Part shown: in pieces, positions 32 to 24,740 of the stretch | How the letters are laid out: the number at the start of each line of letters is the position of its first letter | Numbering within the stretch: position 1 is the first letter of the stretch | NCBI GenBank assembly: GCA_016930695.1 | Contig: JAFGGD010000025.1 | Span: forward strand, 1-34,819 | From: Candidatus Eisenbacteria bacterium | Lineage (GTDB): Bacteria; Orphanbacterota; Orphanbacteria; Orphanbacterales; Orphanbacteraceae | Length of the DNA stretch: 34,819 nucleotides | Direction of reading: 5' to 3' | Translations under genes and position numbers: made by a program | Notes under the pieces: generated by a model | Databases searched by the model: none | Told to the model about the DNA's origin: nothing | What the model saw: only the letters and a program-made list of their open reading frames with translations

Positions 32-118
32 AGAAAATGATTTGGACTTCGATCGCGCTTCGAGCACGGGGACGCGTACGGAATGAAACGGCACGAGTCG
101 CCCCCTTCCGCCGCCGGG

Positions 119-277
119 CTCCCTCTCGGGGCCGTCTCGACTCGCCGGGCACCCACCGGAGCCCGCCTCCGTCGAGTGGAGAAATGAATCTGTCGAGCTT
201 TAACGGGGCGGGCGAAGGTGGGTCGGCGAGCGAGAAGAGGGAGGATGCGGAAGCATCCGGACCGTGCCCCGAAGGGA
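119..277. repeat. Structured dispersed repeat, copy 1
   Basis: This 159-bp element recurs at 21475-21632. The left arm (119-176, 58 bp) differs from the other copy at one base and the right arm (204-277, 74 bp) is identical. The central 27 bases differ. It folds on paper into a branched structure. The outer stem pairs 120-132 with 266-277 (12 bp, one bulge). The middle stem pairs 136-157 with 217-234 (18 bp, two bulges). Two small hairpins lie at 157-171 and at 243-258, the latter a 6-bp stem with a GGAA tetraloop. It lies 127 bp beyond the stop codon of the minus-strand peptidase gene. It could be a non-coding RNA, a 3'-end element or a mobile palindromic unit; the sequence does not decide which. 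Confidence 0.8.
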
Positions 278-301
278 AGGCCGGCGGGGGAAGGGAAACT
301 A

Positions 302-15571: not shown

Positions 15572-18500
15572 ATGAAAAAGGGCTTCGGGCTCAGGGGAGC
15601 AACGTTTCTTTCGTTCGCACTTCTCGTGCTGGCACTCACCCCCCCCATCGCCCTCGCGGGAGATTTCCCCGTATTCGAGGAGCCGGAGTGGGTCGTTTCC
15701 GGTCTTGGCGGCTGGAGGGCTTATACCATAATGGCTCTTGTCGATACGGCGAACGATATCCACCTCGTTTATCATACCGGAGCGGATTCTCTCGTCGACG
15801 CCCGTTATATCCGATTTGATTTCAGCGCGGGAGTTTGGTGCGACACGGCCGACCTCTGGGCGGATAATGGTTTAATCGACGACCTCCCCGTGATCGCTCT
15901 GGACTCCAGCTACAATCTTCACATTTGCTGGGGAGCATCGGATTGGTACATCGACACAATGGAAACGGACACGATGGTACAAGCACGAAGGCATACACTT
16001 CCCCTATACCGCCGGAGAACCGCAGCCGGTATTTGGCAGCCGCCTCTTTCTTCAGATCCACTTACGTTGTGCGATACGAGTGTGGCGAAGGTCACAGGCT
16101 TCGGCCCTCCCGCCATTGACCCGATGGGGGGGATCATCCTTTTTTGGTCCGACCTCAGAGATTCGGCCTCCCAAGACAATATTACGACGGATTCCAAGCT
16201 ATACATAGACGGCTGCAGCACTTGCGCCGCAGGAGGTCAACTTTTCATTGAGCGTCTCGATGCCGATTTCAACATCGGTTCCTTCTCCCCCGTCACCGGT
16301 TTTCGCGTCACCGGCAATCAAACAGTCAAGGAATCGGTCGCCTGTGACTCTCTCGGAATCAAATGTCGAGGTGCGAGTCCGTCATGGATCTGCGTTTCCT
16401 CCGACAGTGTCCTCCACATGGCCTGGGACGATGATCGCTTTGTGGGGTCCGGTTGTTGCATTTCTTGCAGCTATAGCTACACCGACTCCACTCAGCCCTT
16501 TTCATTATTCGGTGAGGACCATATCTTTTATCAAAGCGCGAGTATCGATCCTTATGTAGATCCGAGTGACTGGACCTGGTCTTCTGAGGAGCTATTAAGC
16601 CAGACAATCGGACAGAGAGACAGCTCGGAAGGAGGTTGCGGATTCTACTACGAGAACGACACTCTTTATTGTGTGATATGCGATGACACCGTCGGCTCGG
16701 GCACCACGCCTGATGACGGCCTCGGTTCCGGGGGACTTTTCACAACATTAAGACACCTCCAACCGCAGATCATCTCGGACTCGCATTCCAACATTCACTC
16801 CGCCTGGTTCGGGCGAGTATTCGGTGAGGACTACAGCACCGGGGACTCTACTATATTGCCTTCCTATAAGGCTCCGCAGCACCGCTTTCTAAGCTATCCA
16901 TACTCCTCCGGGCTCGCCTCCGACGAGTGGGTCCCGGAGCTTTGCACGAATCCAAACGTTCCCATCGATTTCTACTCCGACTTGACGAAGACGAATGCCA
17001 AACAGTCTCGCATGGCAGTCGATCAATACGACAACCTTCACATGATCTGGAGATCTTCCTATTTATCCGGATCGACCGACCAGAACATCGTGTACAACCT
17101 GATGAACTACGGCGGAGCTTTCGATGGAAGCAACGTCGTGGAAGTCTCTTCCTCGGATACAACGGGATTCAATCCGTTTGAGAATTGGATCGTTTGCGAT
17201 CGGTACGGCCACGTTCACGTCTTTTGGCGGGAACTGGAATACACGGGGGGACAGGATGTCCTTTACCACGTTCGTGGAATTAACACCGGCGATCCCGACT
17301 TGTCCTCGGTGGAAATCGCTCACGCAGGCGGGCTTTCCCAATCCAATGACGACAGCGTATTCGTCTGCCCCGGGGGCGGTGGCACCGGCAGCATAAAAGT
17401 AGATACGATACGAGTGACCGTGACCGTTCACGGGGAACTGGGAGACCCGATTGCCGGCGTGCCGGCCGATTCCATACGGATTCTGCTCTCGTACGATCCC
17501 TTTGATACGCAGATTCATGTCTGCGCGGGAGACACGCTCAACCCGGCATCCGACACCGACTCGCTCGGCCGCGCGTGGATCGATGTGAGCGCCATCGGCG
17601 GCTGCGGTTACATTTTTGCGACCGCAACCGTTTGCGGACGCGCGATCAACGACACCGACACGGTGTTGATCAACAGCCCCGACATCAATGGAGACGGAAC
17701 AGTCGACTATTTCGACACATTCAAGTATCAAATGCTGCTCAGCGCGGGGACCGGTTGGTGCGGCGACTTCGAACACGTACAGACTCCCGGAACGGTAACC
17801 TATTTCGACACATTCAAGTATTCACCCCATGTCACGTGTACCTGTCCCGGAAATCCCAAGAACGCCGTTTCTCCCCGCATCGTGAATCACCAGGACGGAG
17901 AAAATCTGGACGTCTCCGGCGATTTGGTCGTCGACGCAGAGAACGGTCGGCTCCGGATCGAACTCGAATCGTGTCGTTCTCTCCGCTCCGCCTATATCGA
18001 ACTCTCCATCGATCCCAAGGCGGAATTGTTGTCCTGGCAACCCGGCGACATGATTCGTGCCGATCTTCCGATCGACGTCGTCCGTCTTTCGGATCACGTC
18101 ATAGGAATCACGGTAGCGCAACTCGGAGAAGTCGGTCTCGCTCCGAGCGGTACTTTAGCGGAGGTCGCCTTGCAGGGATCGGAATCCGCCCTTCAGCAAA
18201 CGCAGCTTCGGCAAATCGTCCTCTCCGACCGCAACTTCGAGCTGAACAGCGTGATGCGCGGCGCTCCCAATCTGGCGGCGGATGCGGAAACGGACATTCC
18301 CAAGGCTTTCTACTGCAACACCGCTCCGAATCCCTTCAATCCCACCGTCACAATTCACTACGGGCTGCCGTCGGGCTCGCCGGTCACGATGGAGATCTTC
18401 ACCGTAAGCGGGAGAAGGGTGAAAACCTTGTCGAACGGAAACGAATCCGCCGGTAGACACTCCGTGATCTGGAACGGAAAAGATGAGAGAGGAAAGGACG

Positions 18501-21358: not shown

Positions 21359-21663
21359 CCGGCGCGCGGGAATATCTTCGGTACCAAACACCTCTTCACT
21401 CACTTCGTTCGTGAAAAGAAAATCCGGTACCGGCGGGGCATCGAACATCACGAAACGCTTTCCCCTCGCCTCACCTCCCTCTCGGGGCCGTCTCGACTCG
21501 CCGGGCACCCACCGGAGCACGCCTCCGTCGAGGTTAGAAAAAGGGCCATCGATCTTGTCGGGGCGGGCGAAGGTGGGTCGGCGAGCGAGAAGAGGGAGGA
21601 TGCGGAAGCATCCGGACCGTGCCCCGAAGGGAGGCGGGGCGGGGGAAAAGCTCGGAACGCGCC
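21359..21663. other. Convergent intergenic region holding the second structured repeat
   Basis: This 305-bp gap lies between the M48 gene (+) and the first GWxTD-like gene (-). An 8-bp hairpin with one mismatch (21392-21399 with 21411-21418) comes first, flanked by two GGTACC sites. The structured repeat at 21475-21632 comes next and ends 31 bp from the minus-strand stop codon. No gene is seen. Confidence 0.6.
21475..21632. repeat. Structured dispersed repeat, copy 2
   Basis: This is the 158-bp counterpart of 119-277, in the same orientation. The left arm is 21475-21532, the variable centre 21533-21558 and the right arm 21559-21632. All predicted stems of copy 1 are preserved. The single substitution in the arms (C to A, equivalent to position 163) falls in the loop of a small hairpin, and the rest of the variation is confined to the apical loop. 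Like copy 1 it lies just beyond the 3' end of a minus-strand gene. Confidence 0.8.
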
Positions 21664-23178
21664 CTACCGCTGGACCACGAATTGGGCGGTTTTCCGGTCC
21701 GCCGAGCCGCTCCCCTTGTCCGTCACGTCCACGATCAACGTGTAACGGTCCGGCGGGAGCGAGTTCGTGTCCAGGGAGATGTGGCGGCTCACCGTCCGAT
21801 CGTCGGCGAACGACTCGAAAGTCTGGCTCACCCCCTGCTCCAGCATCCCTTCGTCGCTCCCCTGCAGAAGGCTGGAGAAACGCCGAACCGCGCTGCCGTA
21901 GAGCGTGTAGGTGATCTCATAGACCCCCCGCCCACCCGGCCCGAGCGTCAGGTTGTAGAGCTCGAAGTAGACGTTCACGTCCTCGCCGGGCGCGTAGACG
22001 CGGATCGGGCGGGGCACGATCCGGAAGCCGCGGCGGAGAAACGCCCCCTCACCCCGCTCGTCCCGGGTGACCGCGGCGGCGAAAACCAGGTCGCTGAGCC
22101 GCGCCTCTCCTCCGCCGAAATCGGGCGCCGTCACTTCCGTTTTGAGGATGCCGTGGTTCTTGGAGCGAAGATCGATCACCCGGAGCGCCAGGTGATAGAC
22201 GCCGGGATCGACGGTGAAAGAATCGCTGGTCACGACCCATCCGCCCCCTCCCTCGATCGGATCGAAACGGTGCACCAGGTTCTCCACCCTGCGATCCACC
22301 AATCGGTAGTCCGCGTCGGAAATCGACGCCCGCCGCTGAATCCGCGCCGCCTCCCGACCCTCCTCCACCTCGCGGTCGAACTTGTCCAGAGGGATCAGGA
22401 AGCCGATCAGCAGGTCCGTTCTTTCGCCGGAACCGGCCAGAAAGTTCAAATCAAAAAGAAAGCGGAACTCCTCCGCTCCGCCGTAGTCGTAATCGTTGAT
22501 CTCGGGGAGCGACTCGAAGTTGCGCTTGCCGTCGTCGGTCATCCGCTGCGCCAGGACCGGATCGACGTCGATATCGTTCACCTCGAGAAAACGATTGAAG
22601 CTCTCCTCGAACTCGAGCTGCTCGTCCACGGACCAGCCCGTGTCCTCCCGTAGATACTGGTCGCGGGAGGCGATGCTGGAGACATTGGTCGAAAGCCCCT
22701 CGATGAAGTTGCCGTTCAGCCAGCGGTCCTCGAACCAGAGGATCATGTCGTCGTAGAGCCAGAACTCGCGGGGAGGGCGCATCCCCTCGTGCACCACCAC
22801 CTCGCCCGGCATGCTCTCCCGGTTCTTCGGCTGGCCGAAACGGATCCAGGCGCGGACGCGATCGTCGAACACGAACTCGCCATTCTTGTCATGAAACTGG
22901 AGGATGGCGCCGCGGACCCGCTTCTCGTGCTCTTCGAGGCGTTGGTTCTCGTCCGTCGTCGGCGTCGGGTCCCTCTCCGCCCAGAACCGAACCCGCCAAG
23001 CCTCCCTCTGTTCCGCCGGGAGGTTTTCATACTCCAGGCGCTGCCCCTCGCTCAGGATGACCGAGAAGAAACGGTCCTCCGACGGGTCGGGCCGTGTTTT
23101 CTCACCGGCGATCGCGCGGGAAGTCCCGGCGGCGAGGGCGGTGAGAAGAACGAGAATCACGAGAAGCGCGCGGCGCAT
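21664..23178 (-). CDS. Secreted GWxTD-domain-like protein, paralogue 1
   Basis: A 504-residue exported protein with a signal peptide (MRRALLVILVLLTALAAG, cleaved near AIAG). The start at 23178 is chosen because AGGAGG precedes it and the signal peptide begins there. Residues about 30-180 resemble the GWxTD domain: FFSVILSEGQRLEYE, then FWAERDPTPTTDENQ, LEEHEKRVRGAI and VRAWIRFGQPKN, ending in the LWFEDRW strand. The eponymous GWxTD box is replaced by FVFDDR. The second half is beta-rich (VYFELYNLTLGPGG, SLDTNSLPPDRYTLIVDV), a typical C-terminal sandwich of these proteins. GWxTD proteins are known from Bacteroidetes and related phyla and have no established function. The gene is downstream of its paralogue with an 89-bp gap and is probably co-transcribed. 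Confidence 0.8.
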   Translation of the reverse strand: MRRALLVILVLLTALAAGTSRAIAGEKTRPDPSEDRFFSVILSEGQRLEYENLPAEQREAWRVRFWAERDPTPTTDENQRLEEHEKRVRGAILQFHDKNGEFVFDDRVRAWIRFGQPKNRESMPGEVVVHEGMRPPREFWLYDDMILWFEDRWLNGNFIEGLSTNVSSIASRDQYLREDTGWSVDEQLEFEESFNRFLEVNDIDVDPVLAQRMTDDGKRNFESLPEINDYDYGGAEEFRFLFDLNFLAGSGERTDLLIGFLIPLDKFDREVEEGREAARIQRRASISDADYRLVDRRVENLVHRFDPIEGGGGWVVTSDSFTVDPGVYHLALRVIDLRSKNHGILKTEVTAPDFGGGEARLSDLVFAAAVTRDERGEGAFLRRGFRIVPRPIRVYAPGEDVNVYFELYNLTLGPGGRGVYEITYTLYGSAVRRFSSLLQGSDEGMLEQGVSQTFESFADDRTVSRHISLDTNSLPPDRYTLIVDVTDKGSGSADRKTAQFVVQR

Positions 23179-23267
23179 GACAGGTCCTCCTGGAGGGCAA
23201 GCACCCTCATGGAGTAATACCCCCGAAGCCCGGAGAGGATCGTCGCCGGAACGGGGCTGCGGTTTGC

Positions 23268-24740
23268 TCAGGGCACCTCGACCCGGAAGGGGGCTTCGAT
23301 TGCGGCGCTCCCGCCGGTCGTCTCGTCGTCGACCCTCACGAAGAGCGTGTACCGCCCCGCCGGAAGCGAAGAGAGATCCAGCGAGACCCGCCTCTCGGCG
23401 ACGGTTTCCCGGCTCATCACGCGGGAGCGTTTCTCTTCGCCGCTCCGGAGCTTCCCCCCCTCGTCTCCGCCGAGCTTGCACGAGTATTCGCCGCCCGGTT
23501 CCCCTTCCAACCGGTAGACGATCTTGAAATGGCACCGTTCGTCCCTGCCGATCCCCAGGTTGTAGATCTCGAAGTACACGTAAGCCTTCTCGTCCGCGCG
23601 GAAGACACCGCCCGGGCGCGGCTCGATCCGGTTTCCTCGCCGAAGGATCGTCCCGTCCCCGCCGGAGAGGCGGCGGATCGCCGTCGCGAGGATCGGACCG
23701 CCGATGCGGACCTCCTCGCCGGAGAAATCGGGGACATCGAAGGAGACCGTGCGGGACGACGCGTTGCCGGAGAGCCGGTCGGCGAGGCGCACCGCCACGC
23801 GGCAGGGGCCGGGCGGAACGACGAGAGAGTCGGCGACGAGAAAACCGGCGCGCCCATCCAGGGCCGGGTCGCGGAGAACGCGGGTCTCCTCCTTCGAGGC
23901 GCTCAGATGATAGCCCTCGTCCCAGGCGGCGAGTCGCATTTCGATCCGGGCGTGTCTATGCTCCCCCCGCCCCTCCAAGGAGAGCGCCCCTTCGGGCACG
24001 AAGAGAGAGACGAGAAGGTCGCCGCCTCCTACGCCCGCCGCCGCTCGCGGCTCGACGATGAACTCGATCCCGTCCCCCTCCTTCGGATCGAATTCGTATC
24101 GCACCGGCGCGTTCCGCCACCGTTCGGCGCCGCGCGCGGCGTCCGCCCCCCCCCGGTCCCGATCGATCTCGAGACGGTCGAAGGCGCGCTCCAACCTCTC
24201 GCGGGAATCCGGGACCGCTCCCGTCCGGGGCGAGACGAGCGCCGGCTCGTCCCCGTCGCCGCCCGGAACGAGCAACTGAACATACGCGCCGCTCTCGTCG
24301 ACATCCTCGAACCAGAGAAGCATGTCGCCGTAGCGCCAGATCTCCCGGCGCGCGCCGTCCCGGTCCGGGAAGTCGTCTTTTCGATCGGGAAAATCGAAAC
24401 GGATCGCCGCGCGCGCCCGGTCGTCCCAGACGAAACGGTCTTCGTCGTCCCGAAAATCACCGATCGCCCGCACCACGCGCCGCTGGTGCTCCAGTTCCAA
24501 CTCGTTCATCTCCGTGGTGGGGGTCGGATCCCGTTCGGCCCAAAAGACGCGCCGCCACTCGTCGCGGCGGTTTCCGTCGAGGCGCAGATAATCGCCCCGC
24601 TCCTCCTCGCTCAAGATGACGGAGAAGAAACGCTCCTCCCACGGATCCGGATCATTGACGACGCCCCCGGCGCGAAGAGACGCGGCCGAGAGGAGAAGGA
24701 CGGCGACGGCGGGGGCGAGACGGATGGCGGCTCCCTTCAC
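23268..24740 (-). CDS. Secreted GWxTD-domain-like protein, paralogue 2
   Basis: A 490-residue paralogue of the next gene in the transcript. The start is GTG at 24740 with GGAGGTCA upstream; a signal peptide (MKGAAIRLAPAVAVLLLSAA, the first residue being encoded by GTG) follows. The matching N-terminal block reads FFSVILSEEERGDYL, FWAERDPTPTTEMNE, LEHQRRVVRAIGDF, FVWDDRARAAIRF and LLWFEDVDESGAY. The GWxTD box is again lost (FVWDDR). The C-terminal half matches paralogue 1 in VYFEIYNLGIGRDER and LSSLPAGRYTLFVRVDD. Identity seems moderate, so the duplication is old. It is probably periplasmic or cell-surface. It has a good promoter about 40 bp upstream and is the first gene of the pair. Confidence 0.8.
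   Translation of the reverse strand: MKGAAIRLAPAVAVLLLSAASLRAGGVVNDPDPWEERFFSVILSEEERGDYLRLDGNRRDEWRRVFWAERDPTPTTEMNELELEHQRRVVRAIGDFRDDEDRFVWDDRARAAIRFDFPDRKDDFPDRDGARREIWRYGDMLLWFEDVDESGAYVQLLVPGGDGDEPALVSPRTGAVPDSRERLERAFDRLEIDRDRGGADAARGAERWRNAPVRYEFDPKEGDGIEFIVEPRAAAGVGGGDLLVSLFVPEGALSLEGRGEHRHARIEMRLAAWDEGYHLSASKEETRVLRDPALDGRAGFLVADSLVVPPGPCRVAVRLADRLSGNASSRTVSFDVPDFSGEEVRIGGPILATAIRRLSGGDGTILRRGNRIEPRPGGVFRADEKAYVYFEIYNLGIGRDERCHFKIVYRLEGEPGGEYSCKLGGDEGGKLRSGEEKRSRVMSRETVAERRVSLDLSSLPAGRYTLFVRVDDETTGGSAAIEAPFRVEVP

Follow-up and report, generated by a model that had tools for sequence, protein, structure and literature searches.

Intergenic palindromic repeats with a predicted three-way junction in Candidatus Eisenbacteria bacterium and its relatives

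The window, a stretch of 34,819 nucleotides from Candidatus Eisenbacteria bacterium, carried two copies of a palindromic repeat of ~190 bp, here named element A. As judged from sequence, element A and its relatives are best read as structured repeats specific to this lineage, most likely mobile but non-autonomous, whose three-way-junction fold is selected; we give this reading about an even chance. The family is real and under-described. Its intergenic location and palindromic nature are ordinary, and its architecture and the evidence for a conserved fold are unusual.

Copies, extent and placement of element A

An earlier note on this DNA had described a structured element at 119-277 recurring at 21475-21632. 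Both copies were present, and they shared the same orientation. The extent was too short, because the arms reach about 103 and 294. The anatomy of the two copies is as follows.

103..294, + strand: element A copy 1, full extent with outer arms; homology boundaries CCCTTCC...GGAAGGG common to the family
103-132, + strand: module aL, by module mapping of copy 1
262-294, + strand: module aR, by module mapping of copy 1
103..124, + strand: outer arm, 5' side, pairing with 273-294; family terminal inverted repeat
273..294, + strand: outer arm, 3' side, pairing with 103..124
126..133, + strand: helix 1, 5' strand, pairing with 264 and 266-272; RNAalifold consensus, kept in the genome G003
264..272, + strand: helix 1, 3' strand, with U265 as a conserved bulge; RNAalifold consensus and G003 alignment
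135..147, + strand: helix 2, 5' strand (135-139 and 141-147, bulged A140), pairing with 224-235
224..235, + strand: helix 2, 3' strand; consensus of 17 copies and joint alignment
148..150, + strand: GGC bulge (GGGU in G003), invariant in 17 copies
151..157, + strand: helix 3, 5' strand, ACCCACC, pairing with 217-223; one A-U pair is G-C in G003, a double change
217..223, + strand: helix 3, 3' strand, GGTGGGT; consensus of 17 copies and joint alignment
158-160/214-216, + strand: 3x3 purine loop; consensus of 17 copies
161..169, + strand: helix 4, 5' strand, pairing with 205-213 and containing 163; consensus of 17 copies
205..213, + strand: helix 4, 3' strand; consensus of 17 copies
170..204, + strand: variable apical loop; disagreement averages 0.109, compared with 0.013 for paired columns
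239..263, + strand: third arm, with a GG/CC base (239-240/262-263) and the hairpin GGATGC-GGAA-GCATCC (243-258)
241-242/259-261, + strand: third-arm GA/GGA internal loop, kept despite three double changes between genera
21475..21645, + strand: element A copy 2; outermost arms begin about 21452
21598..21613, + strand: third-arm hairpin of copy 2

The ~30-bp terminal arms of the family read CCCTTCC..GGGGC / GCCCC..GGAAGGG. The outermost arms of copy 2 (GCTTTCCCC..CTCCC / GGGAGG..GGGGGAAAAGC) were unlike the family in sequence and still largely paired. At locus L026 of the parent genome (G000), the outermost 30 bases of either side bore no relation to the family, yet about 28/30 were complementary. 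In both cases, the arms were replaced and the core was kept. The L026 arms did not occur elsewhere in G000, and because of this uniqueness the idea that the core had inserted into an already existing family of hairpins was rejected.

Searches of the parent genome (3.78 Mb, 60 contigs) gave 40 matches to element A, 17 of them near full length, so that the "two-copy element" of the earlier note was an undercount. A covariance-model search returned largely the same set. At least 27 matches had DNA on one given side, which gives ~27 to 40 distinct copies. Since matches lay on 32 of the 120 contig ends, it was probably this family that broke the assembly; when a second repeat, core B, was added, the number of occupied ends rose to 43 of 120.

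As revealed by a survey of flanking genes with a crude ORF caller, all copies in G000 were intergenic. As had been observed earlier, each window copy lay beyond the 3' end of a gene on the minus strand (405-1772 for copy 1, 21664-23535 for copy 2), but this placement was not general. Gene 3' ends facing repeats numbered ~37 and 5' ends ~25, as tallied by hand from the same crude ORF caller for clusters of either core, which is at most a weak preference for 3' ends. The suggestion of a 3'-end processing element was therefore unsupported. Neither the orientation of element A nor its position with respect to genes was fixed.

Other features of the window were recorded as well. Two more dispersed repeats lay at 10-37 and 54-87, a CTCTCCCGCAAGCGGGAGAGGG hairpin and CGCGCTTCGAGTACGGGGACGCGTACGGAATGAA, respectively. 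A GC-rich, terminator-like hairpin (GGCGCCACGG..CCGTGGCGCC) occupied 341-370, in the spacer separating copy 1 from the 3' end of the M20 peptidase gene. At 17695-17821, in the gene for a 1062-aa FlgD-Ig protein, two 34-base repeats, 88% identical and 93 bases apart, are probably protein repeats.

The window had no Rfam match at the gathering threshold, and an Rfam search of 14 family loci gave chance matches only (E 0.76 or worse). Distant BLAST against plasmids found nothing, nor did an exact-pattern search of genome and viral contigs. A wider search of 145 genomes yielded no element A under stricter filters, which missed G003 too. The absence of element A outside its bacterial family is thus weakly shown.

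The predicted fold within and between genera

The predicted branched fold was far more stable than expected by chance. Element A had a folding energy of -104.5 kcal/mol, compared with -77.1 +/- 4.7 for shuffled sequences (z -5.8), and 0/200 shuffles reached it. The z-scores of the two strands were -5.8 and -5.7, and DNA parameters gave -5.8. The stems proposed earlier at 120-132/266-277 (outer) and 136-157/217-234 (middle) and the hairpin at 243-258 were all correct. A further hairpin at 157-171 was missing from the consensus, in which 161-169 pairs with 205-213. The substitution at 163, previously assigned to a loop, is in a stem, where C163-G211 becomes A-G in copy 2 and the pair is broken.

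Among the 17 copies from G000, disagreement was 1.3% in paired columns, 4.1% in internal unpaired columns and 10.9% in the apical loop. Fifteen of the 20 internal unpaired columns were invariant, and the most conserved portion of the element was its internal part, not its ends. The consensus fold of these copies showed no two-sided pair changes, so neither the window nor this genome alone can show selection on structure.

The analysis covered seven genomes of the phylum, all in one family. Copies beyond the window pair, for which the earlier note had proposed a covariance-model search, were found both in G000 and in another genus. A model built from G000 (R1) detected six copies in G003, which belongs to that other genus, with E values from 1.3e-5 to 1.2e-3. 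A DNA search with one G003 copy raised the count there to ~11 and also found a few copies in the genome G006. The reciprocal model (R2), built from the copies of the G003/G006 search, recovered the G000 copies (best E 1.2e-4).

In the joint alignment of the two genera, 93.8% of cells were paired, and two-sided changes occurred in 12 of 44 pairs (43 cells), so that compensatory changes, lacking within G000, were present between the genera. None of 500 shuffles reached the covariation score. Controls slid by 1-3 columns had 33-46% pairing and 0-2 two-sided pairs. Helices 2, 3, 5 and 6, which aligned without doubt, held 8 of the 12 two-sided pairs; in helix 2, four pairs changed on both sides between genera. 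Because joint MAFFT misaligned the 3' half, pairs were counted on an alignment fitted to, and thus leaning towards, the model. Each two-sided change may be one event; with this alignment and two lineages only, the contrast amounts to ~8 events instead of 43.

The unpaired A140, the bulge GG, the GA/GGA loop and U265, read by eye, were identical in both genera. In helix 2, CGA at L009 and L026 of G000 matched the G003 copies, which suggests an old state. Copies in another genus with the same fold and different base pairs suggest, at the level of sequence comparison, that the fold itself was kept during the evolution of element A. Selection on structure, which the earlier note had argued from changes confined to loops, thus lost that argument, as position 163 is in a stem, and gained one from the 12 of 44 pairs changed on both sides between genera.

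Covariation alone is not decisive, the main reason being that template switching between inverted arms at replication can keep stems paired without selection. Element A could accordingly be a DNA palindrome free of any selected function, its pairing maintained by this process, which we regard as quite unlikely. The mechanism is known, and can produce both perfect stems and what look like compensatory changes (PMC8794818); the unique complementary arms of L026 and the altered arms of copy 2 resemble inverted copying of flanks. However, tract copying would tend to erase bulges and internal loops, and A140, GGC/GGGU, the tandem GA, GA/GGA and U265 persisted around the changed pairs, with unpaired internal bases conserved.

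The same conserved bases bear on the proposal that element A serves the cell as a non-coding RNA or as a cis-element that is transcribed, with the junction as a putative protein-binding or RNA-processing module and copies that would be read from neighbouring transcripts or from their own promoter. We consider it possible but doubtful. Consistent with it are the fold kept across genera together with A140, the bulge GG, GA/GGA and U265, a + strand whose hairpin cap is GGAA (GNRA) or a triloop and whose internal loops are rich in purines, and some sites common to genera. Wobble pairs leaned to the + strand, with G-U in 32 and A-C in 6 cells, but at only 6 and 4 positions. The + strand was slightly more stable in 13/17 and 6/8 copies of the two genera, and in 13/13 for core B, where the difference was clear. 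This preference is a weak lean and not proof of RNA. Against an RNA speak the lack of a fixed orientation and placement relative to genes, the decayed or inverted copies at orthologous sites, a copy number and nesting that resemble a spreading repeat, and the lack of an Rfam family match. No promoter sequence or T-run shared by the copies was seen beside them.

Nesting, proposed mobility and shared sites

A second inverted-repeat layer, B, surrounded element A in its wider flanks (GGACGGACGGCGTGATCCTTC.. / ..GAAGGATTACCCGTCCGTCC). Outside the window, a second structured core, core B, had about 20 matches of ~170 bp in G000 (L133-L150), with variation mostly at predicted unpaired positions. A DNA search for core B in the relatives gave chance matches only; those inspected were inside genes. 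Many copies were nested, layer A enclosing B, which in turn encloses A or core B, with brackets up to 4 deep. One copy of core B and examples of nests, all from G000, are listed below.

C46:125777-125948: core B
C8:71941-72481: bL aL bL aL [core A] aR bR aR bR, module map
C37:56368-56770: b a b [core B] b a b, module map
C29:48931-49220: a b [core B] b a, module map

The C8 cluster was predicted to fold as a single hairpin of -329 kcal/mol. Linkers differed between the halves, c2 in the left and gat in the right, which means that the halves are not simple mirror copies. Unbalanced clusters and clusters cut by contig ends also existed, such as the one at C20:110 kb without the outer left A.

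High copy number, exclusively intergenic location, nested composites and species-specific amplification make a mobile palindromic unit the best supported of the three readings in the earlier note, with the reservation that inspection by eye of the copies that had both flanks showed no obvious target-site duplication, and that no empty site was established. No transposase or integrase tied to element A was found, and no carrier gene was linked to it. A reverse-transcriptase origin (group II intron or retron) was rejected, as G000 had no RVT_1 match.

A MITE derived from an insertion sequence, whose transposase would act on the terminal arms, is improbable. Its size of ~190 bp, terminal inverted repeats of ~30 bp, intergenic location and high copy number would suit this origin. 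However, at L026 and in copy 2 the arms were replaced and the core kept, whereas a transposase that reads the termini would require the reverse, the most conserved part is internal, and no gene-bearing element with A termini was met among the matches.

We judge it very improbable that element A is a REP/BIME-type repeat moved by the RAYT transposase of the genome. G000 had a single RAYT-like Y1 transposase gene (C27:972-1298, L232), and others were present in G003 and G006. But these genes were flanked by other hairpins, GTAACCAGATACC in G000 and GAACCAGGTTCC in G006, not by element A, and a RAYT origin was rejected because the RAYT-associated repeat is another hairpin. One repeat resembling the hairpins of the G000 gene lay in the window.

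21378..21433, + strand: hairpin repeat E (GGTACC..CCGGTACC), resembling the RAYT-flanking hairpins and separate from element A

BIME/REP sequences with RAYTs are, like A, intergenic palindromes with mosaic arrays and species-specific amplification (PMC2817692, PMC3733652), but REPs are GTAG-tagged, RAYT-tied palindromes of 20-40 bp, whereas A is a branched three-way junction of ~190 bp without GTAG, and the local RAYT is tied elsewhere. GGAG stood before the hairpin in G000 and was placed differently in G003. A CGTC-tagged REP was also rejected: CGTC was found at the module border in G000 and, by inspection, was absent in G003.

Some sites were common to genera. The genes flanking L180 in G003 were homologous (54% and 47% identity) to genes at the start of C20 and the end of C32 in G000, where both contigs overlap identically inside element A. 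Synteny points to a join of C20 and C32, and C21 has the same overlap too. At this L180-type site (C32/C20), the core was inverted relative to the genes. L039 (G000) and L197 (G006) had both neighbours in common (42% and 66%), and each held an A fragment beside the common GGGTGGCGGC repeat. Further sites with decayed copies were common to G003 and G006. At orthologous sites, copies were decayed or inverted. That genera have sites in common and that copies decay where they stand both speak against high mobility in recent times.

Other repeats were found at or near such sites. The repeat GGGTGGCGGC..CGGGTGCCCGCG..GCCACC was common to G000, G003 and G006 and often adjoined element A (L039:1590-1760; right flank of L176). 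G006 had many GAACCAGGTTCCTTAACAATT repeats (L231, L183, L187), also beside its RAYT-like gene, and some of them sat where old A copies break off.

Under the favoured reading of a non-autonomous mobile element, the core, in the form of RNA or single-stranded DNA, would adopt a three-way junction that the ~30-bp arms close. This conserved fold, bulges and GA/GGA loop included, may act as a recognition signal for machinery encoded by the host or by an element, and this candidate machinery would copy element A into intergenic sites. Copies with common arm sequences could swap what they contain, with recombination or gene conversion acting through both arms. Such exchange would build balanced nests of the type A(B(A(core))), and it could also invert the core. 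Copies would decay in place as they age, and some sites are common to genera. A rather unlikely model posits a new class of bacterial mobile element that would be recognised by its conserved three-way-junction fold, as RNA or single-stranded DNA, and not by fixed terminal sequences, with at least two structured cores, A and B, using one nesting system. If true, fold recognition would let arms be swapped freely and elements nest.

Relation to known repeats and significance

Small interspersed repeats with a predicted fold (PMC3049150, PMC2267715, PMC2229807) and REP/BIME mosaics moved by RAYTs (PMC2817692, PMC3733652) are already known. Element A differs by its balanced nesting with two interchangeable cores, its replaceable arms and its cross-genus branched fold. 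Balanced nesting, with matched halves and two interchangeable cores, was not found in the literature searched. We know of no nesting in ERIC/RU-1, RU-2 and Correia elements. REP dimers inside longer palindromes have been reported (PMC3733652).

In module architecture, as seen in the module map, A resembles the BOX elements of Streptococcus (boxA-boxB(n)-boxC; PMC3049150), which are likewise composite, intergenic, strongly folded in RNA prediction and modular with variable module number. In BOX, however, the modules stand in tandem between boxA and boxC, whereas those of A are matched halves nested round a core. The neisserial intergenic mosaic elements, mentioned in PMC3049150, are also mosaics of repeat units; that mention does not describe them as balanced nested inverted layers, which the nests of A are. 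ERIC/RU-1, RU-2 and Correia elements (PMC2229807) resemble A as intergenic sequences of 100-200 bp that have long inverted arms and are predicted to fold as RNA, but compensatory changes in the fold between genera were not found reported for them in the literature examined. Cozzuto et al. (PMC2267715) described 92 families of stem-loop repeats that, like A, have a predicted fold in common within a genome; they were defined by within-genome repeat clustering, whereas the fold of A was traced to another genus with changed pairs.

Small palindromes are common in bacteria, and it is rarely clear whether a fold is selected or a by-product of the palindrome. Two genera with the same branched fold, different pairs and the same unpaired bases make the question of fold selection testable, and balanced nesting offers a natural system for how palindromic repeats exchange and grow.
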